A DNA stretch of 31,197 nt from a virus. The notes beneath the pieces are model-generated. The model saw nothing but the letters and a program-made list of their open reading frames with translations. It did not search any database and was not told the DNA's origin. The translations under genes and the position numbers were made by a program. The first letter of the stretch is position 1. The number at the start of each line of letters is the position of its first letter. Shown piece by piece: positions 8,901-31,197 of the stretch. The stretch covers positions 1 through 31,197 of the IMG/VR virus record IMGVR_UViG_3300030085_005130, one strand, 5' to 3'.

Positions 8901-11463
8901 TATTATAATCAGCAGCAGTATTTGTGGAACCAGTTTGTTCTACAGAAGCACTATTTGCCGATCCACTAGTTGCAGAAATATTCAGTCTATTATCATTAAT
9001 TCTAACATACTTATAAGTATTCAAATCAACCAACGGTGGTATAACACTACCAGTTAAATTATCATATACACCCTCAACAGAACCAGTTACTTTATGGTTA
9101 GGAACGTAGATACTATTATATGTTGGATTGACCTGAGTATATTCTATCGTAAAGTTCTCAGGCACTTTGACCACATCATCAGTATTTGGAGATGATGATG
9201 TTTGTATCCTAATTACATCGTTATTAACTTTCGTAGCAGTACCACTAAACTGTAGTGGCATGTCAACGGCACCCGATGATGTATTGGTATATGCAAATCT
9301 TTGACCATTATTATAATTTGTAGTATCGGTAGTTACAGTTATTGCACTAGAACCTTCAATACCATGATTTTGTACATAAAAAGTATTTCTATCTGTGGTT
9401 AAAGGATTGCAGAAAACATAGTAAATATTACTTGAAGAAGTAAAATTACTATTACTATTATTATAGTTAATATTAAACGAACCATCACCAGCAGATCCAC
9501 TCCAACCAGTAGAACTTAGAACAGTCGATGCATTTCTTATAGCAAGAGTTCCATATCTACCGTAATCTCTCTGATTAGAAAGGTATGAGAATGAATCACT
9601 TGAACCATTAGTACTAGAACTTCCGGGTGTTCTTCCTTGGAATGCGACTATATTTGACGGAGAAGATCCTCCTAGTCCAAATTCAGCATCAAATAAATCA
9701 CCACCACTGCGGGCTTTATCAGACTCAGAAGCAGATGATCCTGACTGTGAGAGTCTAAGTCTGACTCTATAACGATCACCATTCCAAACAAAAGTACCAA
9801 CACTACCTTGACAAGAGTGTGTGATACTAAGGAAATAATTACCTGGAGTGCCAGTAATTAAACTTGAAATGTTAAGTCCATCAAATGGAGTAGTTCCTCC
9901 ACCAGGACTAGTAATTGCTCGGACATAAATTTGATTTTGACCACCACCATAAATGTTTCCTGTGGTGGATCCAATTGTTATTGTAACGTATTCACTAGTA
10001 CTATTAGTATCACCAGCAATTTCGAGATAATCAATAGTTACATTGGAAGAAGTAATACTTGATGGCAACGCCAGATTAGTTGTTACTGATGTTGTACCTG
10101 TAGAACCAACATAATTAGAAGTAACACTTGATGATTGAGAATTAAGAAAGACAGCCATCGGAGTACTTCTAGTATTTCCGTTTGCTGATTCAACTTTATA
10201 AACCAAACCAAGTCTACAAAGACCATATGTATTATTAAGTGTGCTAAGACTTACAGCAGAACTTAAAGCATCTGTTTCATGCAGCTCAATTGTATTGGCA
10301 TCAATCAGTTTTACATAATATACAGTACCATCAGTCAGTCCGGCATCAGATGCCCCATAATATGGACACTGGAAAACAACTGTATACTTATCTCTTAGAC
10401 TATGACCTGTCCAAGTAATTCGATTAGTTGAAGTATTAATATCTGCAGGGTCTAGATATGTCGTATATGTAGATTCCCAATCATAAGTAACTACCGGAGG
10501 TTTTCTGAAAGACTCTCTACCTGTATTAGTGCTCATACCAACATTGGTAGTGGTAGTAAATGTTGGTGTAGTATCGACGTATGGACGACCATCAGGAGCT
10601 GTTGCCGTACTATCAGAAATTGTTAATGTACGAGGACCTACAGTATTTCTAAGATAAACTTTTGTATTGGCAGCAAATCCATGAGTTTCAGTTGTAGTCA
10701 CTGTCAACGTACTGGGATCATTACCATCAGTAACTGCTCCATCTGCAGTACTTACAGGAAGAGTTGATCCTTCAAAAAACTTACTTGGAACAATAGTCGT
10801 ATAACTACCACTAATATCTCCAGTAGAAACTGCATCTACATCAAGTTCAAAGAAAAATTCTGTAGTAGAAGGAACGTTAGTTACAACAAAAAATCCTTCT
10901 GCTTGATATTGTGAAACACCTTGAACCGAAATTGGGTCACCAACGCCAAGACCATGTGGAATGGAAGTAACTACGTTTATACTTTTGCTATTTGCAACCG
11001 CATTAATAGAAGTAATACCATCAATAGGAGTATCTCCACTACTACTAAAAACGGTAGGAATATTTTTTACAGTCTGAAGAGTTTCCCACTTAGTTGATTG
11101 TAGTCCATATTCAAAGTCAGTATCAATTAGGTTTGCAGGATTACTAACTCTCAGTTTTCCAACAGGGTCTAAAATATCTTCTGCAGGAGTAATTTCAGCA
11201 TAATCTTGCTCTATAAAAACTTGAAGTTTATCAGAATCATTATGTGATGTTGTATCATATACAAGCGATAATGTAGTTTTACCTTCTGATCCATTATATG
11301 CGGCAGACCCACCTTTAGAGGCACTAGAAAAACTATAGATTATTTCATTTCTGGTAACATTAGTAATTACAAGAAACCTTTCTATGGAAATATTTCCGGT
11401 TACTTTTACAGTTTTTTCGCTAGCATCAAAAGTATATTGGCCTATTAGTAATTTCTTTGCCAT
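5989..11463 (-). CDS. giant virion structural protein (1824 aa)
   Basis: The N-terminus (MAKKLLIGQYTFDASEKTV...) is followed by a long Ser/Thr/Asn-rich beta region. It carries several copies of a loose unit opening H-x-(L/F/I)-x-x-G-(D/E/N), such as IPHGLGVGDPISV, ETHGFAANTKVYL, AHNFITGEKITY and QHNLSAGDPVRIAG, each followed by aromatic beta strands (VTNVPSTTEFFFEL-like). From about residue 1330 the sequence changes to a less repetitive, aromatic-rich part (MFDDQNGFFYEYDGQNL, MDYSWYGAGKIRYGF, HVRYMHEYIHNN), ending in TPSGLTLAAPLQ-like fibre-base sequence (NISWSESQA). This arrangement is familiar from large cyanophage virion proteins, possibly baseplate- or fibre-associated, with no assigned role. 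It is preceded by a late promoter (11495-11501) and AGGAAT. Confidence 0.85.
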   Translation of the reverse strand: MAKKLLIGQYTFDASEKTVKVTGNISIERFLVITNVTRNEIIYSFSSASKGGSAAYNGSEGKTTLSLVYDTTSHNDSDKLQVFIEQDYAEITPAEDILDPVGKLRVSNPANLIDTDFEYGLQSTKWETLQTVKNIPTVFSSSGDTPIDGITSINAVANSKSINVVTSIPHGLGVGDPISVQGVSQYQAEGFFVVTNVPSTTEFFFELDVDAVSTGDISGSYTTIVPSKFFEGSTLPVSTADGAVTDGNDPSTLTVTTTETHGFAANTKVYLRNTVGPRTLTISDSTATAPDGRPYVDTTPTFTTTTNVGMSTNTGRESFRKPPVVTYDWESTYTTYLDPADINTSTNRITWTGHSLRDKYTVVFQCPYYGASDAGLTDGTVYYVKLIDANTIELHETDALSSAVSLSTLNNTYGLCRLGLVYKVESANGNTRSTPMAVFLNSQSSSVTSNYVGSTGTTSVTTNLALPSSITSSNVTIDYLEIAGDTNSTSEYVTITIGSTTGNIYGGGQNQIYVRAITSPGGGTTPFDGLNISSLITGTPGNYFLSITHSCQGSVGTFVWNGDRYRVRLRLSQSGSSASESDKARSGGDLFDAEFGLGGSSPSNIVAFQGRTPGSSSTNGSSDSFSYLSNQRDYGRYGTLAIRNASTVLSSTGWSGSAGDGSFNINYNNSNSNFTSSSNIYYVFCNPLTTDRNTFYVQNHGIEGSSAITVTTDTTNYNNGQRFAYTNTSSGAVDMPLQFSGTATKVNNDVIRIQTSSSPNTDDVVKVPENFTIEYTQVNPTYNSIYVPNHKVTGSVEGVYDNLTGSVIPPLVDLNTYKYVRINDNRLNISATSGSANSASVEQTGSTNTAADYNIDVETAFGFAPTACTISSLEFRGDFGANNEYVDLELKDSGGTVIQTWRVGRTEDQGDSQTYVVSKEFGQNVNVTSYLFDDAGNSNKKSFKMNIAPSNQVNFGPGGGPWWGIKFNLTASTSDILLTGTGSGSHNFNLDKVVGAYDGVFQIASTPSSNTFTLTSDFKVPTRQYSINAATDVSSSTEVITLSSAHNFITGEKITYDANGGSSILTGVNTTTVYVIGVGNTSFKLATSSLDAKNNVAINLTAQSGTQYFNSDNLIKNIQGQGSVSTVSGTKELTGTSTNFLINFKRFDKIYIDNGTYIEEKTVDNVTTNENMTLFENASSTVNGNNYYYATQLALRPDGYNLHKPFDGGVDITAGTSPNSRIARQTRKYFRYQSGKGVQTSIAVNFNPPKLVKQLIKASGTTATVDTQEQHNLSAGDPVRIAGATVGFGVNYYNGNYTVATTPTPFQFTYTMSGSPTDVRAGGFPNYVRTSWTDSFVRAGMFDDQNGFFYEYDGQNLSAVRRSSTLQIAGNVSVTRGSQIVTGEGTSFTTQLNVSDYIVIRGQTYQITEVSSDVRMVVQPAYRGLDATKVKATLTVDTKTPQSQWNLDPADGNGFTGFNLDLTKIQMAYMDYSWYGAGKIRYGFKDAKGHVRYMHEYIHNNVLDESYFRSGNLPARYEIENGPNSSTAPTLFHFGTSVIMDGTFDDDKAYQFTGQSRPFAFTTGANDTVASTAESTFEQITLDGNRVYVYSMQLSQVDAEKLVVGHQFSGGGLPAGTYVTQVTVSGANSKVFVNYPATSADPTGGSEYSPIASATSFTAGESTAVELQRPIPLISVRLAPSVDSSLTGALGEREVINRMQLRLRQASVTTNKDVELFLLQNTQPSAIPYEKAQRPSLSQVIKHRAGDTILGGVTIYTTKVSAGSLSVDLAELLEIGNSILGGDNIFPAGPDLLTLAVQAQNPSGLTLAAPLQVSGNISWSESQA

Positions 11464-18515: not shown

Positions 18516-18791
18516 TCATTCAAGTTTGGAAAGTCTTTCGCTCAGAGTATCAATTTGCTTTTGTTGTTCTTTAACAGTTTCAATCAGAAGACCAATCAGA
18601 CCGTTGTAGTTAACAGTCTTTGTTCCATTATCAGTTACAAGTTCTGGAAGAACTTTCTCAACTTCTTGTGCGATGACACCAAGAGCAGGTCTTTGAGTTT
18701 CCTTCCAATCGAAATTAACACCACGAATCTGAACAACCTTTGCAAGTGGATCCTCAATCGTGCGAATATTAGTCTTCAGATTTTCGTCAGA
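18516..18791 (-). other. peptidase S74 chaperone domain (autocleaved C-terminus)
   Basis: Codons for residues 681-771. Conserved family landmarks are the S-D-x-x-L-K-x-N-I start, G-V-I-A-Q-E-V, LPELV and YNGLI...LLIE, followed by a heptad helix. The cleavage site is expected between Ala680 and Ser681. It is the only S74 domain complete in this window. Confidence 0.9.
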
Positions 18792-20831
18792 TGCCGAGTT
18801 AAAATCTTGTGCTGTTGCAATACCAGAGACATTTATTCCACCAGAAATTGTAACACCATATCCTGTGGTTTCAAATTTCTTGACATCATCATAATAAAGT
18901 TCTACTGCTCCATCTGCAATAAAGTTTGCAGCCGTTTCACTTCTGTCCCTCACCATAATACCAACATCATTATTAGAATTTAAGTTGATATCACCACCAG
19001 TTGAGGTGGTTCTAATATTCAAAGCTCCTGTGATATTGCTAATGTATGATTGTCCACCATTATGCCAAAGTTGTAAGTCAGCACCACTTCCAAACTGAGC
19101 TTCAACAGAATCATTAAATCTCAAAAAACCAGATGTCTTAACGTCAGCAATATCACTACGGAGGAATGAAGTGGAGCTGATACCACTAAGTAAACTTGAG
19201 TCGGTAGCGATACCACTAAAGTTAGCATAATTTAAGTAATAGGTTCCTTCCTGACCATCTAACTTATCAGCATCAGTTGCTACTCCAACAAAGTTACTAT
19301 AGTCTAAGTAATAAGTTCCCTGCTGACCATCTAACTTATCACTATCAGTAGCAATACCAACAAAGTTAGTATAGTCTAAGTAATAGGTTCCTTCTTGTCC
19401 ATCAAGAGTGTCGGCATCTAAACCATTACCAGTTCCTTCATCAGCAGTTGTGAGTAATCTATCGGTATTATAATATGGCGCTTTATTAAATACCCACTTA
19501 TCACCAGTAGAAGCATATTGTAATGTTGCAGAAGCACCATCAATTTCTATTCCGGCACCATTAGCTGCTGCAGAATCGGCAGCACCAGAAGCAAGAACAA
19601 TTGATTTATCATCAACAGTCAGTGTAGTCGAATTAATTTCTGTAGTCGTTCCATCGACTTGAAGGTCACCAAGTATAATAACTTTACCAGTAGCATCTCC
19701 GACTACTGCTGGATCAAGAACTAAGTTTTCTGGACCAGTTATTGTTGCAGTATTTCCTGTGCCTACAATTGATACACCAATACCAGTGGTTCTAAATTTC
19801 TCAATAGCATTATGATAAAGTATTGCTGAACCATTTGTGACGAATTTTGCTTTATTTTCGTTTGCAGCACTGTTTCTTATAATTAAATTATCAGCATTGA
19901 TGACTAAATTTCCGCTGCTCCCATTTTCCTGAATAATAGAGTTGCCATTACCAGTGTTGTAATAAATCTCTAATTCTTGATTAGCACCAAATCTCAGTTT
20001 GTCGTCATCACCAAAATCTACATTACTTTGAAATGTAGAAACGCCAGAAACATTCAGTTGTTGAGTCTCTGTTATTCCATAAACGGTAACACCTGCACCA
20101 GTGGTTTCAAATTTCTTGGAGTTATCATAATAGAGTTGTACTGTATTATTAGTAGCGAGTATCGCATTTTGAGAAAGAGCTCCAGTTCTAACATCAAGAC
20201 CTCCTTTAGCGTCTATTTTAAAATCATGTCCCGCACTATCTGCAAGAATATGAGACTTGCCAAATTGATCTGTCCAAAGTTGCAAGTCAGCATCATCACC
20301 AATTCTCAATCTATCATTATCACCAAGATTTACATTATCTTGGAATGTAGAAACACCAGAAACATTTAGAGTTCCATCTACATCTAACTTAGAAGTTGGT
20401 GATGAGGAACCAATACCAACTCTATGATTAGTACTATCAGCAAAAAGTAGTGTTGAAATTCCCGTAAGACTTCCACCACTAGCGAATTGAACTGCTCCGT
20501 CCTCCCCACCAACTACTGCACTATCTACAGTTATTGTTGCAACTCCAGTTACTCCTTGAGTAATTGTAATTGCAGCACCAACAAAATTAAGTGTAGTGAA
20601 TCCAGTTCCTACAAGATTACCCTCATCTTGAAGGTCTATATGATCAATTAAAGAACTTCCTGTTGGTCCAATAAATTGAGTGGCAGTTATAATTCCAGTA
20701 GTGCCAATTAAAACAGAAGAGGTCCCAATCCCAACCGTGTAAGTGCCAGCAGTTGAGATTCCTATAAAATTATTATCTTCTTGAACATCTATAAATGACG
20801 CTAGTTGAGAGAGCTCTCTGTTAATAGACAT
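18516..20831 (-). CDS. tail fibre with C-terminal peptidase S74 intramolecular chaperone (771 aa)
   Basis: A shaft of fibre units (NVSGVSTFQ, DDADLQLW, YYDNSKKFETTG) resembles the 1982 aa fibre and shares a 310 bp block with it. A perfect-length threefold repeat of 24 residues occurs at 19188-19403. The last 91 residues are a peptidase S74 domain: SDENLKTNI at 681-689, then GVNFDWK, ALGVIAQEVEKVLPELV, YNGLIGLLIE and a final coiled coil EQQKQIDTLSERLSKLE. In this family the chaperone assists trimer folding and is then cleaved autocatalytically just before the Ser of SD, here Ser681, so mature fibre would end near residue 680. The start at 20831 has AGGATA about 10 bp upstream and two late promoter cores further up. 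Confidence 0.93.
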   Translation of the reverse strand: MSINRELSQLASFIDVQEDNNFIGISTAGTYTVGIGTSSVLIGTTGIITATQFIGPTGSSLIDHIDLQDEGNLVGTGFTTLNFVGAAITITQGVTGVATITVDSAVVGGEDGAVQFASGGSLTGISTLLFADSTNHRVGIGSSSPTSKLDVDGTLNVSGVSTFQDNVNLGDNDRLRIGDDADLQLWTDQFGKSHILADSAGHDFKIDAKGGLDVRTGALSQNAILATNNTVQLYYDNSKKFETTGAGVTVYGITETQQLNVSGVSTFQSNVDFGDDDKLRFGANQELEIYYNTGNGNSIIQENGSSGNLVINADNLIIRNSAANENKAKFVTNGSAILYHNAIEKFRTTGIGVSIVGTGNTATITGPENLVLDPAVVGDATGKVIILGDLQVDGTTTEINSTTLTVDDKSIVLASGAADSAAANGAGIEIDGASATLQYASTGDKWVFNKAPYYNTDRLLTTADEGTGNGLDADTLDGQEGTYYLDYTNFVGIATDSDKLDGQQGTYYLDYSNFVGVATDADKLDGQEGTYYLNYANFSGIATDSSLLSGISSTSFLRSDIADVKTSGFLRFNDSVEAQFGSGADLQLWHNGGQSYISNITGALNIRTTSTGGDINLNSNNDVGIMVRDRSETAANFIADGAVELYYDDVKKFETTGYGVTISGGINVSGIATAQDFNSASDENLKTNIRTIEDPLAKVVQIRGVNFDWKETQRPALGVIAQEVEKVLPELVTDNGTKTVNYNGLIGLLIETVKEQQKQIDTLSERLSKLE
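19188..19403 (-). repeat. three tandem 72 bp (24 residue) repeats in the S74 fibre
   Basis: Three consecutive units of 24 codons: DGQEGTYYLDYTNFVGIATD..., DGQQGTYYLDYSNFVGVATD..., DGQEGTYYLNYANFSGIATD.... They are in frame, so copy number change would preserve the protein. The unit ends in (S/A)DKL or SSLL. This is a minisatellite-like coding repeat. Confidence 0.9.
19494..19803 (-). repeat. fibre segment shared with the 1982 aa fibre (copy 2)
   Basis: Partner of 16975-17285. It encodes the same order of motifs (GVSIVGTGNTATITGP, NLVLDPAVVGDATGK, ILGDLQVDGT, YASTGDKW). Long identical stretches of DNA alternate with diverged ones. Confidence 0.8.
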
Positions 20832-20901: not shown

Positions 20902-22119
20902 TCAATCAAGGATATCAAATATATGATCAGACTCTGGAGTGTTGTAAATATGTGCCGATCCCTGGTGATTATTACTATTAACATCATCCCAGTGAGCGCC
21001 AACAACGATTTTACCAGATCCCACTGCGACTGATATTCCAAAGTAATCAAAATTCTCGCCATTAGGATGAGTTAGTTTTGAAATATAATTACCATCTAGA
21101 TCATAAACGTGTGCCGCACCGTCACTAGAACCGCTAGTAGAATTATTAATATCACCAACAACAATTTTACCGTCCCCTATCGCTACTGAATATCCAAAAT
21201 TATTGCTATTAGTACCATCATGACCAGTTATAATACCAACTTGAGTTCCATCTAAATCATAAATGTAAATTGCTCCATTACCATAGGTGTCAGCATCATA
21301 TCCAGGAGCACCGACAACGATTCTACCGGATCCTACTGCGACTGATGCTCCAAATTCATCGCCATTATTACCATTAGAATCAGTCAAGATACTAAGTTGA
21401 TTTCCATCCAAGTCAAAAATGTATGCTGATCCAGGAACAGTTTGATAATTACCACCCCAAGCACCAACAACGATTCTACCGGATCCTACTGCTACCGATT
21501 GTCCAAATTGATCTCTATAAGCGCCATCAGAAGCAACTATTTTAATTTCATTAGTTCCATCTAGATTATAAATGTATGCCGCTCCTTGTTCTTCATTACT
21601 ACCAACATCACGATAATAAGCACCAACAACAATTTTACCGGATCCTACCGCTACCGAATTTCCAAAGGATTGAGCACCTTCACCAGCGCCATCAGAAGCA
21701 ATTATCTTAACTTCATTAGTTCCATCCAGGTCATAAATGTATGCCGCTCCAGCATTACCTGCATTTTGATCTTCACCCAATGCGCCAACAACAATCTTCC
21801 CACATCCTACTGCAACCGAATTTCCAAAATAATCACCCCATTGTATATCAGAAGATGTTTTTTTAACTTCATTATTTCCATTTAAGTCATAAATGTATAT
21901 TGCTCCATATTCTAATCCTGACTGTATACTCTCCGGAACACCAACAACAATTATATCAGATCCTACTGCTACTGATTTTCCATATTCCTCCCCAGCAACA
22001 CCATCAGAAGCAGTTATTATTCCTACAGACGTTGGTTGCGTAGTCGTATCATAACGATCTGTTCCGATGAAAATTTTTTCATCACTACCAATAAAAATAT
22101 TTCTTCCTATGAGTGCCAT
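20902..22119 (-). CDS. FG-GAP seven-repeat protein, predicted beta-propeller, paralogue C (405 aa)
   Basis: After an N-terminal segment (MALIGRNIFIGSDEKIFIG) the protein consists of seven repeats of about 50 residues. Each has the order (D/N)-x-FG-x-SVAVG-x-G-(K/R)-IVVGA, an acidic loop with D/N residues, then GAAYIYDLDGTNEVKI. Seven FG-GAP-type repeats are what a seven-bladed integrin-like propeller needs; such propellers often bind calcium through acidic loops and mediate adhesion. A short tail (DHIFDILD) closes the chain. It starts 2 bp after its paralogue at 22122-23318 and has only a weak Shine-Dalgarno, so translational coupling is likely. It is probably a virion adhesin or tip; no signal peptide. 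Confidence 0.88.
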   Translation of the reverse strand: MALIGRNIFIGSDEKIFIGTDRYDTTTQPTSVGIITASDGVAGEEYGKSVAVGSDIIVVGVPESIQSGLEYGAIYIYDLNGNNEVKKTSSDIQWGDYFGNSVAVGCGKIVVGALGEDQNAGNAGAAYIYDLDGTNEVKIIASDGAGEGAQSFGNSVAVGSGKIVVGAYYRDVGSNEEQGAAYIYNLDGTNEIKIVASDGAYRDQFGQSVAVGSGRIVVGAWGGNYQTVPGSAYIFDLDGNQLSILTDSNGNNGDEFGASVAVGSGRIVVGAPGYDADTYGNGAIYIYDLDGTQVGIITGHDGTNSNNFGYSVAIGDGKIVVGDINNSTSGSSDGAAHVYDLDGNYISKLTHPNGENFDYFGISVAVGSGKIVVGAHWDDVNSNNHQGSAHIYNTPESDHIFDILD

Positions 22120-22121
22120 GT

Positions 22122-23318
22122 TTAATACCTATAATTGTCTACAATATCATCATAATAATCACTTAATGTTTTATCAATTTCCCATATATATGCTGAACCA
22201 ACAAGAGTCGCACCACCATGACCATCCTGATGAGCACCAACAACAATTTTACCCTCTCCTACTGCGACTGAGTTTCCAAAGTAATCACCCGCAGCACCGT
22301 CAGAAGCAGTTATTTTAACTTCATTATTTCCATCTAAATCATAAATATATGCCGCTCCTTGCTCATTATTTGGACCTGGAAGATCCGCATATGCAGCACC
22401 AACAACGATTTTACTAGATCTTACTGCAACTGAGTTTCCAAAGTAATCATTTAAACTACTATCAGAAGCAGATATAATACCAACTTGATTACCATTAAGG
22501 TCATGAATGTATGCTGCTTGTTTCTGCGTAGCACCAACAACAATTCTACCGGATCCTACTGCAACTGCTTTTCCAAATTCATCGACATTAACACCATCAG
22601 AAGCAGTCATAATACCAACTTCATTACCATTAAGGTCATAAATGTATGCTGAACCAGCATCAGTACCATTACTATTATCATCACCATAAGCACCAACAAC
22701 GATTCTACCGTCTCCTATCGCTACTGACCATCCAAAATAATCATTCATACTACCATTAGAAGCAGTTATCTTAACTTCATTAGTTCCATCTAGGTCATAA
22801 ATGTATGCCGAACCAGAAGAAAGGTTGTCACCAAAAGCACCGACAACAATCTTCCCACATCCTACTGCAACCGAGTATCCAAAATAATCATCGATAGCAC
22901 CATCAGAAGCAGTTATTTTAACTTCATTAGTTCCATCTAGATCATAAATGTATGCCGCTCCACGTCCTGCATTTTTATAAGCACCGACAACAATTTTACC
23001 GAATCCTGCTGCAACTGAGATTCCAAAAAAATTAGAACCAGCAGCATCAGAAGCAGTTATCTTAACTTCATTAGTTCCATCTAGGTCATAAATGTATGCC
23101 GAACCAGAAAGAAATGCATTATTATCATCATCATAAGGGGAACCAACAACAATTTTACCAGACCCTACTGCAACTGAGTTTCCAAAGTAATCACTAGCAG
23201 CACCATCAGAAGGAGTTAGTTTTTTATTCTCAGTAGTTCCAATTCCTGTGGTAGAAGCTATACTGACAATAATATCACTATTTTTTATAACAAATTTATT
23301 TCCTGCGTAAAGTCCCAT
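22122..23318 (-). CDS. FG-GAP seven-repeat protein, predicted beta-propeller, paralogue B (398 aa)
   Basis: An N-terminal segment (MGLYAGNKFVIKNSDIIV) precedes seven repeats, the first opening SDYFGNSVAVGSGKIVVG and the last GDYFGNSVAVGEGKIVVG. Repeats 1-3 and 6 end YDLDGxNEVK; repeats 4 and 5 end in the alternative NGNxVGI. Repeat 5 is short (VVGATQKQAAYIHD), with the acidic loop largely lost. The tail is LSDYYDDIVDNYRY, ending in aromatic residues. It starts 7 bp after paralogue A with a weak Shine-Dalgarno and no promoter of its own. The role is inferred as for the other paralogues: a host-contact propeller on the virion. Confidence 0.88.
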   Translation of the reverse strand: MGLYAGNKFVIKNSDIIVSIASTTGIGTTENKKLTPSDGAASDYFGNSVAVGSGKIVVGSPYDDDNNAFLSGSAYIYDLDGTNEVKITASDAAGSNFFGISVAAGFGKIVVGAYKNAGRGAAYIYDLDGTNEVKITASDGAIDDYFGYSVAVGCGKIVVGAFGDNLSSGSAYIYDLDGTNEVKITASNGSMNDYFGWSVAIGDGRIVVGAYGDDNSNGTDAGSAYIYDLNGNEVGIMTASDGVNVDEFGKAVAVGSGRIVVGATQKQAAYIHDLNGNQVGIISASDSSLNDYFGNSVAVRSSKIVVGAAYADLPGPNNEQGAAYIYDLDGNNEVKITASDGAAGDYFGNSVAVGEGKIVVGAHQDGHGGATLVGSAYIWEIDKTLSDYYDDIVDNYRY

Positions 23319-23325
23319 ATTTCTA

Positions 23326-24519
23326 TTAGTAATTAAGATCTATTGCATCATAAAGATTGTAAACAGGTGGAGTATCATAAATGTATGCTGATCCACCCTC
23401 CCATGCATTATCAGTATCACTACGAGCATTAATAAGGATTTTACCACACCCTACTGCAACCCTGTGTCCAAAATTATCATTAGGATCAGCACTAACAGAA
23501 GCAGTCACAATACCCAATTGATTACCTTCAAGATCATAAACATATGCTTTTCCGATAGTATTGATTCCCGCCAGGCGAGCACCAACAACAATTCTTCCGT
23601 TTCCTGCTGCAACAGTTTGTCCAAAATAACCCCCACCGCCAGAAGAGGCATTATTCTCCCATGGACCATCAGAAGCAGTTATAATACCAACTTCATTTCC
23701 ATCCAAGTCAAAAATATATGCTTTCTCTGATGAGAGAGTGCCAACAACGATTCTACCACTTCCTACTGCGACTGAGTGTCCAAAGTAATTAAGAGGAGCA
23801 CCATCAGAAGCAGTTATTTTAACTTTATTTGAACCATCTAGGTCATAAATGTATACTGAACCAGAATTATTACCATTATCATCATCATTATCAGCACCAA
23901 CAACAATTTTACCAGAACCTACTGCAACCGAGGATCCAAAACGATCACTAGGAATACTATCAGAAGCAGTTATCTTAACTTCATTAGTTCCATCTAGGTC
24001 ATAAATGTATGCAGAATTAGCATACTGAGTACCAACAACAATCTTCCCACATCCTACTCCAACCGAGTATCCAAAACGATCACTAGCAACACCATCAGAA
24101 GCAGTTATCTTAACTTCATTATTTCCATTCAGGTCATAAATGTATACTGATCCTTGCTCAGAGTTATCTCCCCGAGCGCCAACAACTATTTTTCCACATC
24201 CTGCTCCAACCCTAAATCCAAAATAATCATCAGCAGCACCATCAGAAGCAGTTATCTTAACTTCATTAGTTCCATCAAGGTCATAGATATATACTGCTCC
24301 TTGAAAGTTATTAGATCCAATATCAATACTCCAAGAACCAGCAACAACTTTACCAGATCCTACTGCAATTGCGTCTCCAAAATAATCATATGCACCGCCA
24401 TCAGAGGACATGATTTTAATCTCATTTGATGGAAGAGTGGTTACATCACCACTCTGCCACATATATGGGATACCATCATCAGTAGTTAATCTTTTTCCAG
24501 ACCCTACAATAATCGCCAT
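23326..24519 (-). CDS. FG-GAP seven-repeat protein, predicted beta-propeller, paralogue A (397 aa)
   Basis: The N-terminus MAIIVGSGKRLTTDDGIPYMWQSGD is a short cap of a kind seen before phage tip domains. Seven repeats follow, for example YDYFGDAIAVGSGKVVAG, DDYFGFRVGAGCGKIVVGA and DNFGHRVAVGCGKILINA. Repeat 6 carries an insertion (WENNASSGGGGYFG). Three of the seven replace SGK with CGK. The chain ends TPPVYNLYDAIDLNY. It begins one base after the 121 aa gene's TGA, with GAGGAAG within that gene's end, so the two are coupled. With paralogues B and C it forms a three-gene array; the high similarity of the repeat DNA points to recent duplication. Confidence 0.88.
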   Translation of the reverse strand: MAIIVGSGKRLTTDDGIPYMWQSGDVTTLPSNEIKIMSSDGGAYDYFGDAIAVGSGKVVAGSWSIDIGSNNFQGAVYIYDLDGTNEVKITASDGAADDYFGFRVGAGCGKIVVGARGDNSEQGSVYIYDLNGNNEVKITASDGVASDRFGYSVGVGCGKIVVGTQYANSAYIYDLDGTNEVKITASDSIPSDRFGSSVAVGSGKIVVGADNDDDNGNNSGSVYIYDLDGSNKVKITASDGAPLNYFGHSVAVGSGRIVVGTLSSEKAYIFDLDGNEVGIITASDGPWENNASSGGGGYFGQTVAAGNGRIVVGARLAGINTIGKAYVYDLEGNQLGIVTASVSADPNDNFGHRVAVGCGKILINARSDTDNAWEGGSAYIYDTPPVYNLYDAIDLNY

Positions 24520-24520
24520 A

Positions 24521-24886
24521 TCAATTTACTTCCTCAAGCAAAAACTTATACTTCTTACCATTTCTTCTGTTAATCAGGAAGAGATCTTCTTCACCTTCCT
24601 GAATAGTCCATTGTCCCCATGTCCCATCAACATCATTCTGCTTCCCTTCATTAGAAAGTTGAAGGTCAGTAGTATAGATATTTCTCCACCTCTTTGTTGA
24701 GGATCCTAAATCATAACTATTATCAGTCTCAGGAGAAGTAGTTGCACCAATAGCAACGGCACCACTTACAGACCGAAGACTCATTCCATTATTAGACTCG
24801 ATTAAAAGTGACCCAGTAGATTCAATAGCAGTAATACCATCGCCATCTACATTTAGTTCTGATACACCAAATCCTTTAGTTGCCAT
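24521..24886 (-). CDS. small fibre-associated structural protein (121 aa)
   Basis: MATKGFGVSELNVDGDGITAI is followed by IESTGSLLIES, AIGATTSPETDNSYDLGSSTKRWRNIYTTDLQLSNEG and the conserved-looking C-terminus with DVDGTWGQWTIQEGEEDLFLINRRNGKKYKF. The segment DLGSSTKRWxNIYTTDLQLSNEG and the DLFLINxRNGKKYKF ending recur at the ends of marine phage fibre and virion proteins. It is probably a tip-attachment or fibre-base component that precedes the propeller genes; the role is inference. The start at 24886 has AAGGATA directly upstream and a late promoter only 13 bp upstream, giving a very short leader. It heads the unit 24886-20902. Confidence 0.85.
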   Translation of the reverse strand: MATKGFGVSELNVDGDGITAIESTGSLLIESNNGMSLRSVSGAVAIGATTSPETDNSYDLGSSTKRWRNIYTTDLQLSNEGKQNDVDGTWGQWTIQEGEEDLFLINRRNGKKYKFLLEEVN

Positions 24887-24899
24887 TATCCTTTTTAGT

Positions 24900-24906
24900 T
24901 ATTTAT
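24900..24906 (-). promoter_or_regulatory. T4-type late promoter core (CATAAATA) embedding a stop codon
   Basis: ATAAATA on the minus strand whose own bases 24905-24903 are the TAA stop of the 455 aa gene. It lies only 13 bp before the ATG at 24886 and would drive the 121 aa gene and the three propeller genes. Confidence 0.7.
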
Positions 24907-26270
24907 GAAGTTCTAGTTAGTGTTCCACTACCGGTGATTTTATGAACCCAATATTTTTTAGTTCCTCCACCAGAAGAAACAATATATTCAGTAACTGTTT
25001 GAGCGCCAGTATAAGTAAACAGTGATTCTGGTGCAATATACTTTAGATATATTATTCCAGATCCACCATCTCCTCCCGTACTTAAAGATACACTAACATT
25101 ATATTGTGAAATGTAAGTCCAGTTTGGAGATGCTCCACCACCTCCACCGCCAGTATTATCATCCGCATTACCGCCAGGACCTCCAGCATAACCACCATTA
25201 CCACCTCCTCCAAGTCCTCCAACACCTGCATCATAAGAAGTCTGTTGTCCATTAACAGAAGATACAGAATTATATCCACCACCACCGCCACCACCAGCAA
25301 CAAAACCACTTAATTCGGAAAAAAAGTTTGCTAGTTGATATCCTGCACCGCCAGAACCAGAACTAGCAGAAACGCCAAAACCTCCTGATACATAATTTCC
25401 ACCAGGAGTTGCATATCCACCTCCACCTCCTGCACCACTGTTAATATTAGCATTTCCACCATTGCTTCCATAAGAACCACTACTTCCACCAGTGCTATCA
25501 TGCCATCCTGCTCCTCCACCACCAGATCCACCAAAAGGATCTGAAGAATTTCCAGCATAATTGAAAGAACCAGAAGATTCTGTTGCTCCTTCACCACCAC
25601 CTTTTACATAATGAAGAATTGTTCCACTAGAAGTATCTTGACGTAAATTGGTATTATTTCCGTTAGAATGAGTAGTCTGTGTAGCAGCAACTTCACAATA
25701 AATTGTGCTACCAATACCAATAGGTTCATTATTGACTATTAAAACTCCACCGGCACCGCCGCCACCTGCACATGTTTGATCAAAGGCACTTGAAGGTGTT
25801 CTTCCGCCTTTACCACCACCACCAACTAATAAGAAATCAAACTCTGGTTCACCCATTGAAGTATCATTAATAACAAAAGTATCTGACTGAATCAACGCTG
25901 TTCTAGCAGAATCAGAATATATTGAAAATGTAGCAGTCTCATTTACATTCAAGTCGGCAAAATTATCAGAACGAATTCCAATCGGAAACTGTTTTGATGT
26001 AGCATTTCCTGTTAAATTTACATATCCAGTAAGAGTTGTTCCAGCATCGGGATTACCATCGTTACCTACGTTCTCAAAGTCGGTTGATGCAATACCAACT
26101 CCTGAAATTTCCCAATAAATATTAACTGATAAATTAACATTATCAGTTACATTATTATCAGCAGAAGTAAATGAAATAATTGGAGAAATGCTCTGTCCTT
26201 CATCTATACTTCCAGGAAGATTAGAAAAAGCAAGAGAAGGTATCCTATTACTATGCAGTTTTAATCCCAT
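24903..26270 (-). CDS. beta-sandwich plus glycine-rich tip protein, paralogue 2 (455 aa)
   Basis: The N-terminal part (residues about 10-145) contains a Calx-beta-like sandwich, with SIDEGQSISP, VYWEI-type strands (IYWEISGVGIAST), GTTLTGYVNLTGNATSKQFPIGI and NETATFSIYSDS, ending INDTS. Residues about 150-410 are an extreme glycine/serine-rich domain opening FLLVGGGGKGG and containing AGGGGGGGY and GGGGGGGASP runs, as in polyglycine-helix phage tips and animal-type Gly-rich families. A C-terminal segment (GGTKKYWVHKITGSGTL) closes the chain. The glycine-rich part could be a lattice of PGII helices as proposed for some phage adhesin tips. It has its own late promoter at 26294-26300. Receptor binding is inferred. 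Confidence 0.85.
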   Translation of the reverse strand: MGLKLHSNRIPSLAFSNLPGSIDEGQSISPIISFTSADNNVTDNVNLSVNIYWEISGVGIASTDFENVGNDGNPDAGTTLTGYVNLTGNATSKQFPIGIRSDNFADLNVNETATFSIYSDSARTALIQSDTFVINDTSMGEPEFDFLLVGGGGKGGRTPSSAFDQTCAGGGGAGGVLIVNNEPIGIGSTIYCEVAATQTTHSNGNNTNLRQDTSSGTILHYVKGGGEGATESSGSFNYAGNSSDPFGGSGGGGAGWHDSTGGSSGSYGSNGGNANINSGAGGGGGYATPGGNYVSGGFGVSASSGSGGAGYQLANFFSELSGFVAGGGGGGGYNSVSSVNGQQTSYDAGVGGLGGGGNGGYAGGPGGNADDNTGGGGGGASPNWTYISQYNVSVSLSTGGDGGSGIIYLKYIAPESLFTYTGAQTVTEYIVSSGGGTKKYWVHKITGSGTLTRTS

Positions 26271-26293
26271 TATATCTCAACAGACTTTTTGAG

Positions 26294-26300
26294 TATTTAT
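26294..26300 (-). promoter_or_regulatory. T4-type late promoter core (AATAAATA) abutting a stop codon
   Basis: ATAAATA on the minus strand sharing a base with the TAA stop of the 467 aa gene (26302-26300), 23 bp before the ATG at 26270. It would drive the 455 aa gene. Confidence 0.7.
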
Positions 26301-27703
26301 TAGAGTAAAGAGAGTGCTCCATCACCTATTATTTTATGAATCCAAGTCCTCTTTGTTCCTCCGGCAACAGATTGATCATAAGAGGTTACGGTATGATCAG
26401 AAGCAGTTCCAGTCCAGTTGCCCACTAATTGTGTTTCGGACGTATATTTCAAATAAACAATTCCAGATCCACCGTGTCCACCACTTCTGCTGGTATTACT
26501 GAATACACTTCCGCCAGGATAATTGTGGTGTGGTCCTCCATCAGCACCTCCTCCTCCACCACCAGTATTTGGGGTGGCGTGAATGTTTGGTTGAGTATTT
26601 GATAATCTACCATTACCACCACCATCTCTACCATCTCCAGCAGAAGAAGAACCTGCACAAGATGCACTTCCCTCCCAGTAGTATTCAGTTCTTCCTCCAC
26701 CTCCTCCACCTGCAATCCTATTACTACCATCATACCCATCACCAGCCAGTTCGGAGAAGAAATTTGTCAAATCGTATCCAATACCACCATCAGCTCCAGA
26801 AGAATTACCATTTTGACCATCTCCGCCAGCGCCTCCACCACCAGCGGTATGGCAATAACTACTAGTGTCGCCACCATCATTTCCATAAGTTGATCCACTT
26901 CCACCATATTTGTTACTACCATTACCAGCGCCACCTCCAGATCCACCACCAGAAGGAGCATTATAACCATTTCCGTAATCAGTTCCACCTCTACCACCAC
27001 CACCAACACTGTCTATTTCATTTCCAGATTCATTAGTAACTCTCAAATAAGTAGGATTACCATTTTGATATCCATATACTGTTGTTCCACCAGTACCAAT
27101 TCCTATCCAAACAGTTGGATTGTTATCAAAGATATCAGGATGAGAAGCTACTTTAACACCACCGGCACCACCTCCACCACCACCTTGATGGGTCTGACCA
27201 GAGACAGGTCCACCGGCACCGCCGCCACCGACTAAAAGAAACTCAAAATTACTTGCGGTGGAAGTATCATTAATAATGAAATTAGAAGAGTCCAATAATT
27301 GTGTTCTGGAAGAATCTCTATATATTGAAAATGTAGCAGTCTCATTTGCATTAATATTAGCACCACTTGGGTCATCAGTATAATTATCCGAACTAATTCC
27401 TATCGGAAATTGTTTTGACGTTGCCGTACCATTTACATCAACATATCCAGTAAGAGTTGTTCCAGCATCAGGATTTCCATCGGCACCCACACTACTAAAG
27501 TCAGTTGATCCAATACCAACTCCTGAAATTTCCCAATAAACCCTATTAGTATCAACAAGTAAATTACGCCATTGAGAAGTTGCACCTATGGTAGGAGATA
27601 TGGATTGACCCTCATCAACACTTGCAGCTAAATTAATAATTTCAAAATCGGGTGAAACATTAGTACGGAAGTCTATGTTACCAGTTATATTTAAAGATGA
27701 CAT
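26300..27703 (-). CDS. beta-sandwich plus glycine-rich tip protein, paralogue 1 (467 aa)
   Basis: Paralogue of the next gene with the same order: a Calx-beta-like sandwich (SVDEGQSISPTIG, VYWEISGVGIGST, GTTLTGYVDVNGTATSKQFPIGI, NETATFSIYRDS, INDTS), then a glycine-rich domain from about 155 to 430 (FLLVGGGGAGG, QGGGGGGAGGV, AGGGGGGRTEY), and a C-terminal segment ending GGTKRTWIHKIIGDGALSLL. The linker GANINANETA contains an insertion relative to its paralogue. It follows the giant fibre gene by one base, with AGGAGG (27720-27715) inside that gene's end providing a strong ribosome binding site, so it is likely co-transcribed with it. A virion tip or adhesin role is inferred from the domain style. 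Confidence 0.85.
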   Translation of the reverse strand: MSSLNITGNIDFRTNVSPDFEIINLAASVDEGQSISPTIGATSQWRNLLVDTNRVYWEISGVGIGSTDFSSVGADGNPDAGTTLTGYVDVNGTATSKQFPIGISSDNYTDDPSGANINANETATFSIYRDSSRTQLLDSSNFIINDTSTASNFEFLLVGGGGAGGPVSGQTHQGGGGGGAGGVKVASHPDIFDNNPTVWIGIGTGGTTVYGYQNGNPTYLRVTNESGNEIDSVGGGGRGGTDYGNGYNAPSGGGSGGGAGNGSNKYGGSGSTYGNDGGDTSSYCHTAGGGGAGGDGQNGNSSGADGGIGYDLTNFFSELAGDGYDGSNRIAGGGGGGRTEYYWEGSASCAGSSSAGDGRDGGGNGRLSNTQPNIHATPNTGGGGGGADGGPHHNYPGGSVFSNTSRSGGHGGSGIVYLKYTSETQLVGNWTGTASDHTVTSYDQSVAGGTKRTWIHKIIGDGALSLL

Positions 27704-27704
27704 C

Positions 27705-30700
27705 TTATGACAAACCTCCTCTTACAATCTTGTAAGTAGTTATACCAGATATTCCAGTCTCAGGTGTTGCTTGTAGCAATACATTACTTCCAGAAATTGA
27801 AGCTTCAATTGAAACAATCTTATTTGGATTATACATGACTGCATATTCTTGGGAGTATGCAGTTGTCCCATCATGCATGACAAGAACTTTCTGTGCCTGT
27901 ATCGTACTACCACATCCAACATGAATTGTATATTCTGCAAGGTCATTTGCAGAAGTTGCAAAAGTATCAATCGTGAATGGTGTTCCGGCACTTGCAGTAT
28001 GACTGGTTGTTATGGATACTATTGAATGAGTTCCTATCGAAATTGTACCGTCAGTATTTGCTTGGACTCTTATAACTCCGTTAGAATCTTTAAGAGATGT
28101 TGCATCAATACCGGATAACTGAGAACCATCACCATAAAATGAAGTAGCAGATACTATTCCCGCAACATCAAGTTTTGCCGTTGGTTGTGCGGAACCGATA
28201 CCAATATTGCCATTAGCATCTGAGAATACATAAGTTTCTCTTTCCTGATCAAAGACATAGACAACACCAGATTGAGACCCAGATCCAGGAACATCATCAT
28301 TATAAGCACCAACAGCAATAGTCTTACCGTCAGCACTACATGTTACAGAGTATCCAAATTCATCATTAGATCCAGAAGCATAAGTTCCGGTTAAGATACC
28401 AACTTCATTAAAGTTATTTCCTTGACGATTAAAGACATAAGTAACTCCAGATGAGCTTGAGGATCCAGGAACCTCATCATAATGAGCACCAACGACAATA
28501 GTCTTACCATCGGCACTAGTTGCTACTGATTGTCCAAAAGAATCATTAGAGTCAGAAGCATAAGTTCCGGTTAAGATACCAACTTCATTAAAGTTATTTC
28601 CTTCACGATCGAAGACATAAACAACTCCAGAAAACGATCCATCATCACTATCCTGCGGAGCACCAACGACAATAGTCTTGCCATCGGCACTAGTTGCAAC
28701 TGATTTTCCAAAGTTTACTAAAGAACTTGAAGTTTCAAGAGAACCTGTTAAGATACCAACTTGATTAAAGTTATTTCCTTCACGATCAAAGACATAAGTA
28801 AGTCCAGAAGAATATCCAGGAACCTCATCCTGACGAGCACCAACGACAATAGTCTTACCATCGGCACTGGTTGCAACTGAGGTTCCAAAATAATCATTAG
28901 AGTCAGAAGCATAAGTTCCGGTTAAGATACCAACTTCATTAAATGTATTTCCTACACGATCAAAGACATAAGTAACTCCAGAAGAAGATGCAGATGTAGG
29001 AACCTCATCATTATATGCACCAACGACAATAGTCTTACCATCAGCACTAATTGCTGCTGATCTTCCAAAAACATCAGCACTATCAGTAGCATAAGTTCCA
29101 GTTAAGATACCAACTTCATTAAATGTATTTCCTTCACGATCAAAGACATAAACAACTCCAGATGATTCTGAAGATCCAGGAACCTCATCACCAATAGAAC
29201 CAACGACAATAGTCTTACCATCAGCACTGATATCAACTACCTCCCCAAATCCATCAACAACATCGGAAGCATAAGTTCCGGTTAAGATACCGACTTCATT
29301 AAAGGTATTTCCTTCACGATCAAAGACATAAACAACTCCAGAAGAAGATGCAGATATTCCAATTGCATCCCCCCAAGCACCAACGACAATAGTATTACCA
29401 TCGGCACTAGTTGCAACTGAGTTTCCAAAATAATCATTAGAGTCAGAAGCAAGAGATCCGGTTAAGATACCAACTTGATTATGAGTAGAAATTCCAGAGA
29501 TGCTTAGTGCAGAATTAGATATATCAGATGCCGAAGCATAAGATACCAAATCACTTCCGGCAGGAGGTAAGTTGGTTAATTCTTTACCATCACCAACAAA
29601 TTTCTGTGCGGTTACGATACCAGTAATCGTTACACCATCAGATGTGGTTTCTAATTTTAATGCAGTATCAGTATGATAAATTCCTACACCACCAGCACCA
29701 GTAAGATAAACTTTACCTCCATCTGCACCAGTCCTTATTTCAATATTTCCGACATTTCCACCCATGGAATTGGATGAAATCTTTATATGATTATTGGCAA
29801 CAGAGTTAATATTTAATCTTTGTGCATCTCCATATATACTATGGTAACCTCCGGCGGATGGTCCAAAATATATTCTTTTATTATCACCCATATATACATC
29901 ATCTTGGAATGTAGCAATACCAGAGACGTTTAGAGTTCCATTAACATCAAGTGTTGCCGTTGGTTGTGTAGAACCAATACCAATATTACCGGTCAGATGT
30001 TCGTGATGGATACCCTGAATAGTAGATGCTGGTGAGAATCCAACATCAGACCTATAGATATCACCATCACCAGTACTAGAACCACTACCTGCTAAGACAA
30101 TACCATTACCACAATAGACTAATGAAAGAACAGATTCTAGTCCAGAACCCATTTCGACTTTAGTCCAGTTCTCTCCAAGGTCGGTTGACTTTAAAATATC
30201 CCCATCACCAGTACTAGAACCAGCACCTGCCAATACAATACCATTATCACAATAGATTAATGAATGGATTGATTCTAAATCTGTATTATTAGAACCATCA
30301 ACATGTGGTATCTTTCTAACCCAGGATTTTCCATAATTTTTAGATTTAAAGACAACTCCATTACCTCTTATACCATCATCATCAAATCCAGCACCTGCTA
30401 AGACAATACCACTACCACAATAAAGTATTGTATGGATAGCTTCTAATGAATTTGAATAACCCATATCTTTCTGGGTCCAGGTTTGACCATAGTCAGTAGA
30501 CCTAAGAATATCTCCATCTCTAGTACTAGAACCAGTACCTGCTAGGACAAGACCATCGCCACAATAAGTTAATGAATAGATGATATTCAAAGAAGAGGTT
30601 AATGCTTCGTCAGTAGTACTATCGTGAGTCTTGGTCCAAGTTTGACCATAGTCAGTAGACCTATAAATATCACCATCGCCAGTATTGGAACCAGCACCTG

Positions 30701-31197
30701 CTAAGACAATACCATCACCACAATAGGTTAATGCAGGAATTTGTTCAAGTCCAGCACCCATTTCAACTTTAGTCCAATTAAGTCCAAAGTCAGTAGACCT
30801 ATAAACATCACCATCGCCAGTATTGGAACCAGCACCTGCTAAGACAATACCATCACCACAATACTCTAATGAAAGAATAGATTCTAATCCAGAACCCATT
30901 TCAATCTGAATCCAAGTGCGTCCAAAATCAGTAGACCTGTAAATATCACCATCATCAGCAGTATTTGTAGATCCACTACCTGCTAAGACAATACCGTCAC
31001 CACAGTAGACTAATGCAGGAATTTGTTCAAGTCCCGTACCCACTTCAACTTTGGTCCAGACTTTAGCAATATCATCATTAAGACCTATAGGCATCGCAGG
31101 AGTATGAAGTTCCTGTCTAATAAAACCTGTAACATCAAGTTTTACTACTGGGTCAGCAGTTCCGACACCAACATAACCAGTGTGATGTTGATGATGG
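27705..31197 (-). CDS. giant fibre with two seven-repeat propeller domains, 5' end outside window (at least 1163 aa)
   Basis: The frame is open to the right edge: upstream of the internal Met at 31094 lie 34 more codons reading HHQHHTGYVGVGTADPVVKLDV and onward, a fibre unit like the internal HHEHLTGNIGIGSTQPTATLDV. The true start is therefore outside. Visible order: fibre unit; seven BNR/Asp-box repeats (30039-31058), each with YC(G/D)xG, LAGxG and S-(T/K)-D-x-G-x-(T/N)-W; a shaft with NVSGIATFQDD; seven FG-GAP-like repeats (28226-29480) with GILTG, FGxSVATSADGKTIVVGA and VYVFDREGN; another GSAQPTAKLDV unit; and a C-terminal domain with HVGCGSTIQAQKVLVMHDGTTAYSQEYAVMYN. It is probably a trimeric host-contact fibre. 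Confidence 0.9.
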   Translation of the reverse strand, partial: HHQHHTGYVGVGTADPVVKLDVTGFIRQELHTPAMPIGLNDDIAKVWTKVEVGTGLEQIPALVYCGDGIVLAGSGSTNTADDGDIYRSTDFGRTWIQIEMGSGLESILSLEYCGDGIVLAGAGSNTGDGDVYRSTDFGLNWTKVEMGAGLEQIPALTYCGDGIVLAGAGSNTGDGDIYRSTDYGQTWTKTHDSTTDEALTSSLNIIYSLTYCGDGLVLAGTGSSTRDGDILRSTDYGQTWTQKDMGYSNSLEAIHTILYCGSGIVLAGAGFDDDGIRGNGVVFKSKNYGKSWVRKIPHVDGSNNTDLESIHSLIYCDNGIVLAGAGSSTGDGDILKSTDLGENWTKVEMGSGLESVLSLVYCGNGIVLAGSGSSTGDGDIYRSDVGFSPASTIQGIHHEHLTGNIGIGSTQPTATLDVNGTLNVSGIATFQDDVYMGDNKRIYFGPSAGGYHSIYGDAQRLNINSVANNHIKISSNSMGGNVGNIEIRTGADGGKVYLTGAGGVGIYHTDTALKLETTSDGVTITGIVTAQKFVGDGKELTNLPPAGSDLVSYASASDISNSALSISGISTHNQVGILTGSLASDSNDYFGNSVATSADGNTIVVGAWGDAIGISASSSGVVYVFDREGNTFNEVGILTGTYASDVVDGFGEVVDISADGKTIVVGSIGDEVPGSSESSGVVYVFDREGNTFNEVGILTGTYATDSADVFGRSAAISADGKTIVVGAYNDEVPTSASSSGVTYVFDRVGNTFNEVGILTGTYASDSNDYFGTSVATSADGKTIVVGARQDEVPGYSSGLTYVFDREGNNFNQVGILTGSLETSSSLVNFGKSVATSADGKTIVVGAPQDSDDGSFSGVVYVFDREGNNFNEVGILTGTYASDSNDSFGQSVATSADGKTIVVGAHYDEVPGSSSSSGVTYVFNRQGNNFNEVGILTGTYASGSNDEFGYSVTCSADGKTIAVGAYNDDVPGSGSQSGVVYVFDQERETYVFSDANGNIGIGSAQPTAKLDVAGIVSATSFYGDGSQLSGIDATSLKDSNGVIRVQANTDGTISIGTHSIVSITTSHTASAGTPFTIDTFATSANDLAEYTIHVGCGSTIQAQKVLVMHDGTTAYSQEYAVMYNPNKIVSIEASISGSNVLLQATPETGISGITTYKIVRGGLS
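27715..27720 (-). promoter_or_regulatory. strong Shine-Dalgarno AGGAGG for the 467 aa gene
   Basis: AGGAGG on the minus strand, 11 bp before the ATG at 27703. It lies in the last codons of the giant fibre gene (RGGLS), so translation of the upstream gene would expose it. Confidence 0.75.
28226..29480 (-). repeat. seven FG-GAP-like blades of the giant fibre
   Basis: Seven repeats of about 60 residues: GILTGTYAS, then DSNDYFGxSVA, TSADGKTIVVGA, an acidic loop D(E/D)VPG, and SGVVYVFDREGN. Blade 4 and blade 5 have shortened loops. DNA of the repeats is highly similar; the plus-strand block gttaagataccaacttcatt recurs in nearly every copy. Confidence 0.9.
30039..31058 (-). repeat. seven Asp-box (BNR-like) blades of the giant fibre
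   Basis: Seven repeats of 43-53 residues with the sequence W-T-K-V-E-M-G, L-E-x-I/V, YCGDGIVLAGAGS, GDGDIYRSTDFG. The S-T-D-x-G-x-T-W element is the Asp-box signature of sialidase and Ycf48-like propellers. No sialidase arginine triad or catalytic residues are apparent, so a binding rather than catalytic role is likely. Confidence 0.88.

Follow-up and report, generated by a model that had tools for sequence, protein, structure and literature searches.

The locus described here encodes several beta-propeller proteins in close succession among phage genes, raising the question of what such proteins do for the phage that carries them. The window that we analyzed comprises the first 31,197 nt of a 32,160-base virus record, of which 963 bases remain beyond it. 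The gene at 780-1400 has matches in 475 phage records, nearly all of them cyanophages, with the best to the freshwater phage S-SRM01 (69%), bearing out the source proposed in the first-pass annotation, a T4-like cyanophage; Pfam and PHROG matches of the neighboring genes likewise agree with its placement of the propeller genes among tail fiber genes. We conclude that the window carries the tail fiber (adhesion) gene cluster of a T4-like cyanophage. Three genes for stand-alone propeller proteins, p1, p2 and p3, lie back to back before the gene for an S74-chaperone fiber, with operon-like packing between fiber genes and a spacing of 1-7 bases, and none of the three products has a good match to any PHROG of known function. 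The features are listed in Table 1.

Table 1. Features of the propeller and fiber region, in window coordinates.
Feature	Coordinates	Strand	Evidence
Fiber with C-terminal S74 chaperone domain, next operon gene	18516..20831	-	Pfam and PHROG matches
p1, stand-alone FG-GAP_2 propeller protein, 405 aa, seven repeats	20902..22119	-	Pfam E 6.6e-70
p1 C-tail, NTPESDHIFDILD	20905..20943	-	Tail comparison
p1 N-tail	22024..22119	-	Pairs with L016_2, L020_3
p2, stand-alone FG-GAP_2 propeller protein, 398 aa, seven repeats	22122..23318	-	Pfam E 2.1e-90
p2 C-tail, EIDKTLSDYYDDIVDNYRY	22125..22181	-	Tail comparison; short helix predicted, low confidence
p2 ring	about 22164-23243	-	AlphaFold model
p2 N-tail	23226..23318	-	Pairs with L016_1, L020_2; low pLDDT
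p3, stand-alone FG-GAP_2 propeller protein, 397 aa, seven repeats	23326..24519	-	Pfam E 5.6e-61
p3 C-tail, class A, DTPPVYNLYDAIDLNY	23329..23376	-	Tail comparison; separate pattern scan, 13 records
p3 N-tail, class A, ...MWQSGDVTTLPSNE	24421..24519	-	Conserved in L016, L020 lineages; DNA pattern scan, 11 records
Lone fiber C-terminal module, 121 aa, directly before p3	24521..24886	-	phrog_892, 2.5e-21, last 73 positions
Large fiber protein, 5' end beyond window, two propellers here	27705..31196	-	Pfam E 6.5e-42 (FG-GAP_2)
FG-GAP propeller of large fiber, seven blades (predicted)	28239..29489	-	Pfam, AlphaFold, Z 38.8
Linker between the two propellers, fiber-type GNIGIGSxxPxAxLDVxG motif	29490..30044	-	Sequence; pLDDT mostly <50
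Asp-box propeller of large fiber, seven repeats, six complete boxes	30045..31067	-	Pfam, motif count, AlphaFold

Several neighbors of these genes deserve mention. The 121-aa gene product equals the C-terminal module of cyanophage fibers and is a possible docking base for propeller proteins, and the two adjacent glycine-rich proteins encoded at 24903-27703 have a common N-terminal domain with a DEGQSISP motif and are perhaps another pair of tip proteins. The product of 5989-11463, a relative of a virion structural protein from a cyanophage, finds its best match in a groundwater podovirus (Manatee Spring) and a further one in a phage of actinobacteria, which hints that exchange has crossed phage types.

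Pfam FG-GAP_2 (PF14312) recognizes seven stretches in each of p1, p2, p3 and the 27705-31196 frame, and every one of the 28 repeats in the whole record scores above the curated family cut-off, so that the claim of seven repeats per FG-GAP unit stands, coordinates included. Our own repeat-counting model over-calls by one at times, giving eight for p1 where Pfam gives seven. The motif FGxx[VAI] occurs six to eight times per protein, compared with about 0.5 times in shuffled proteins (1.1 for the long protein). A DNA-level search of phages returned short matches only, and viral pattern scans with p1 and p3 gave almost no matches, the patterns being too specific.

An AlphaFold model of p2, computed from a 26-sequence alignment with the S-TIM5 row left out, has seven blades with a pLDDT of 87 and a pTM of 0.88; residues 1-25, the N-tail, are predicted with low confidence, and the last blade is completed by the strand at residues 28-34. 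In both p2 and the large fiber the models contain seven four-stranded blades, with closure by one N-terminal and three C-terminal strands, as judged from strand lists and superposition rather than from coordinates. VIA-align matches the p2 model (26-383) to integrin alpha headpieces with a Z of 42.4 and an rmsd of 2.4 Å over 333 residues, and the large-fiber FG-GAP domain matches integrin alpha with a Z of 38.8. The likeness extends to the predicted fold, the seven blades and the mode of closure. However, none of the four FG-GAP proteins contains the integrin calcium-binding DxDxDGxxD loops, and we therefore do not file them as integrins; identity to integrin alpha is also only about 20%, with no further integrin domains. 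These predictions support the proposal of closed seven-bladed FG-GAP propellers: p2 and the FG-GAP domain of the large fiber are closed seven-bladed rings by prediction, and p1 and p3, at 53% identity to p2, presumably form such rings too.

The large fiber protein is longer than first thought, as the frame was taken to end at an ATG at 31,094 but is actually open to the end of the window at 31,196. Its AlphaFold model (1129 residues) contains two well-predicted rings joined by low-confidence linkers, the Asp-box ring at about 10-350 and the FG-GAP ring at 536-952. In the Asp-box domain both BNR_6 and BNR score above the Pfam cut-off, seven YCGDGIVLAG-type repeats are spaced at 46-56 aa, and the strand list of the model gives seven blades with moderate confidence. 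The expected count of seven thus applies to the repeats but not to the boxes, since a complete SxDxGxxW box is present in only six of the seven; the seventh is split with the N-terminus supplying its W strand, as velcro ring closure predicts. A Foldseek search with the two-propeller model was discarded as a counter of Asp-box blades, as the alignment spans both domains with a high rmsd.

Beyond 31,197 and up to 32,160, a short run of Ns gives way to a further Asp-box domain that is read in another frame and likewise has seven repeats. The record therefore contains at least six propellers, and the five originally counted are an underestimate; three of them probably sit in a single fiber gene cut by an assembly gap. 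The first-pass description of a multi-propeller region is correct and falls short of the full number; a single apparatus in which all the propellers act jointly would be conjecture. Asp-box domains of similar type are present in phage contigs L086 and L108-L111 at up to 66% identity, that of L086 near a portal-like gene, and those in L108-L111 also have seven repeats (of the eight matches in L108, two overlap).

A scan of IMG/VR for relatives yielded 70 loci. Among 80 non-truncated and well-scoring FG-GAP arrays, 51 have seven repeats, 14 have eight, 12 have six, two have four, and one has 14. Exactly seven is thus correct for the FG-GAP units of the window but describes 51 of 80 arrays among relatives, and a strict rule of always seven was dropped. 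The stand-alone FG-GAP trio recurs directly after an S74 fiber in two further uncultured lineages (L016/L017 and L020/L029/L122), to one of which the pair L119/L122 is closely related, and an S74 fiber gene adjoins the trio in the window and in every complete trio examined. FG-GAP clusters beside fiber genes, which the first-pass annotation had suggested seeking elsewhere, are found among the IMG/VR relatives. In L029 (13003-16797) and L122 (11789-14165) a sugar-transferase-type gene (PF04488) and other non-fiber genes directly follow the trio.

We compared the nine trio proteins of three lineages (the window, L016 and L020), treating N-tails and C-tails separately. The two tails choose the identical pairing of proteins between the window and L016, and likewise between the window and L020, the chance of each agreement being 1/6. 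Between L016 and L020 the matching is not clean, with near-tied N-tails and C-tails favoring another order, so that the pairings agree on class A only, and our claim extends no further than this class and the two clean pairings that involve the window. Of the classes, A stands out most clearly, with an N-tail of the form W-x-S-G-D-V-T-T-x-P-S-N-E and a C-tail containing TPxVY. In contrast to the tails, the propeller bodies of the nine proteins give no clear pairing between lineages, and the notion of three clean orthologous families was abandoned when a protein tree, reflecting mostly the body, failed to recover tail classes A, B and C. The identity of the trio classes resides in the tails.

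We also considered whether the class-A tail is attached to another type of head, and rejected this: the N-tail scan finds 11 records, of which the new ones, L119 and L122, likewise proved to hold FG-GAP trios, and the others are contigs on which this tail had been seen before. The C-tail scan adds two contigs in which the gene start is cut off or collapsed. In L124 (3771-4055) a class-A C-tail ends a fiber with an apparent single blade, which is probably an assembly-collapsed repeat.

The pair L029 and L122 gives a closer view of how bodies and tails diverge. The C-tails of all three genes are 100% identical and the N-tails 85-97%, while the bodies are 73-76% identical; most flanking genes encode proteins at 87-98% identity, but the fiber fib866, at 60%, falls below the bodies. 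For this one pair of metagenomic lineages, DNA similarity of the inner blades is 0.777 at the same position and 0.778 under random pairing (P 0.58), whereas the end blades still show an effect of position when all blades are included (P 0.002). Depending on how the blade windows are cut, a blade is most similar to its same-position counterpart in two to four of 21 cases, as against about 16-20 of 21 in simulations of point mutation at comparable divergence. We read this lost positional matching of inner blades as recombination or gene conversion among blades. We also put forward, tentatively and at somewhat less than an even chance, that the trio is a three-gene cassette of integrin-like heads whose 21 near-identical blades are exchanged by recombination between positions and between genes, so that receptor-binding surfaces could be reshuffled with no retroelement involved, the class-specific tails meanwhile setting where each head docks.

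A propeller within a larger fiber-type protein offers a related comparison. L032 (6581-8275) and L037 (3227-3823) encode the same protein (88% identity along 197 residues), which has a tail-fiber PHROG match and, at its C-terminus, weak TNF/BclA-like matches; a whole seven-blade propeller is present in L032 and none at that place in L037, showing directly that it is gained or lost as a single unit within a fiber-type protein. In a comparison of propeller proteins from L032 and L037, which form a second lineage, the N-part is 88% and the C-part 84% identical compared with 62% for the propeller, and positional matching of the blades is only partly lost, a blade's own position being best in three of seven.

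The trio combines an adjacent S74 fiber gene with conserved ends and a variable body, as in phage fiber-tip adhesins. We favor, with a probability of roughly 0.6, the reading that the stand-alone propellers are exchangeable receptor-binding heads with fixed docking tails and reshuffled blades, where virion presence, docking and binding are what we infer. Most likely the proteins would be distal heads on the fibers, with the short N- and C-tails, specific to each protein, setting the docking place, and the propeller body determining the binding target, probably a surface glycan. Selection would preserve the tails while the bodies diversify through recombination among near-identical blades, and the number of blades would be held at seven, the fold requiring a closed ring. 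A hint that such proteins belong to the virion comes from the S-TIM5 relative, which was deposited under the label virion structural protein.

The stand-alone propellers could instead be decoration proteins of the capsid, tail sheath or baseplate that bind glycans or particles loosely, and it is consistent with this that the S-TIM5 relative is deposited as a virion structural protein with its gene not beside fiber genes, and that the S-MbCM6 propeller lies in a giant baseplate-wedge-type protein. We regard this as unlikely, as S74 fiber genes adjoin the trio in every complete case examined and elsewhere (L032/L037) a tail-fiber-type protein carries the propeller as a plug-in part. Stand-alone FG-GAP genes of Vibrio phage nt-1 and of the S-TIM5 group lie away from fiber genes, among metabolic and unknown genes, which would suit proteins of the infected cell rather than the virion, altering for example the host surface to exclude other phages; the operon-like packing of p1-p3 between fiber genes and the presence of propellers within fiber proteins of the same phage make this very unlikely. 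An enzymatic role, such as a glycan-degrading or sialidase-like activity clearing surface polysaccharide, is highly improbable in our judgment. Sialidases do exist among Asp-box propellers, and GH74 xyloglucanases give a loose alignment with the two-propeller model, but that alignment has an rmsd above 25 Å, no Pfam enzyme family reaches its cut-off, and the integrin heads that the FG-GAP rings match are binding domains.

A separate concern is that blade shuffling could have arisen in assembly, through repeats put together wrongly from short reads, with the bodies merely diverging by mutation, as every trio sequence comes from metagenome assemblies and the repeats are many. However, separate IMG records agree to the base in their trio sequences, in one case five of them and in another four, and within the trio the longest stretches repeated exactly measure 44-84 bases, which together make random misassembly unlikely. 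Repeats of that length are shorter than common read lengths; moreover, the frames remain open and the count remains seven, and we consider this explanation quite unlikely.

Returning to receptor-binding heads as the preferred reading, its interest lies in the fact that host recognition by cyanophages is poorly known, partly because adhesins escape sequence recognition. Should the propeller heads prove to be adhesins, the motifs in their tails would allow them to be found by sequence, and shuffling of blades at a fixed seven would, if true, be a route of diversification apart from point mutation and diversity-generating retroelements. The question is now testable with purified proteins and with isolates such as S-SRM01 and S-TIM5.

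FG-GAP propellers are encoded by the isolated cyanophages S-TIM5, S-MbCM6, S-H9-1 and S-SCSM2R, where their labels read virion structural protein, baseplate wedge or TolB, and, according to BFVD matches of the p2 model, by giant viruses and other phages; very similar propellers in giant viruses adjoin collagen-like repeats. The first-pass annotation knew of no multi-propeller apparatus described for cyanophages, and although the gene content is thus known, a search confined largely to open-access literature turned up no account of FG-GAP propellers in phages. The S-TIM5 protein resembles p2 closely, as a 407-aa stand-alone PF14312 propeller whose predicted structure matches at 1.5 Å. Unlike the window, S-TIM5, S-MbCM6 and S-SCSM2R have a single stand-alone copy or a propeller inside a large baseplate-type protein, and we saw in these three phages no trio whose tails are class-specific.

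The nearest isolate, S-SRM01, also encodes three stand-alone propellers in its fiber region, with six to seven RCC1 repeats; the start of the first gene overlaps the end of the S74 fiber gene, and the two others lie further on. These genes differ from the trio in being spread among others rather than back to back, and they represent a different propeller family in the same kind of place. The tip adhesin gp38 of T-even phages is a separate small protein encoded beside the fiber gene, with conserved ends, a variable middle and a glycine-rich fold. By analogy the trio may be comparable, in being small separate proteins by a fiber gene with fixed ends and a variable middle, but the fold differs. 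Recombination that swaps adhesin specificity has been cited previously (PMC7468147). The fibers of eCIS use beta-propeller lectins as binding domains (PMC12923769), and thus also carry a propeller as the binding domain on a contractile-injection fiber, although these are domains inside one fiber protein and not stand-alone trios. The arrangement in the window therefore joins the phage adhesins with an exchangeable tip, which are already known, and the version built from an FG-GAP trio is new.
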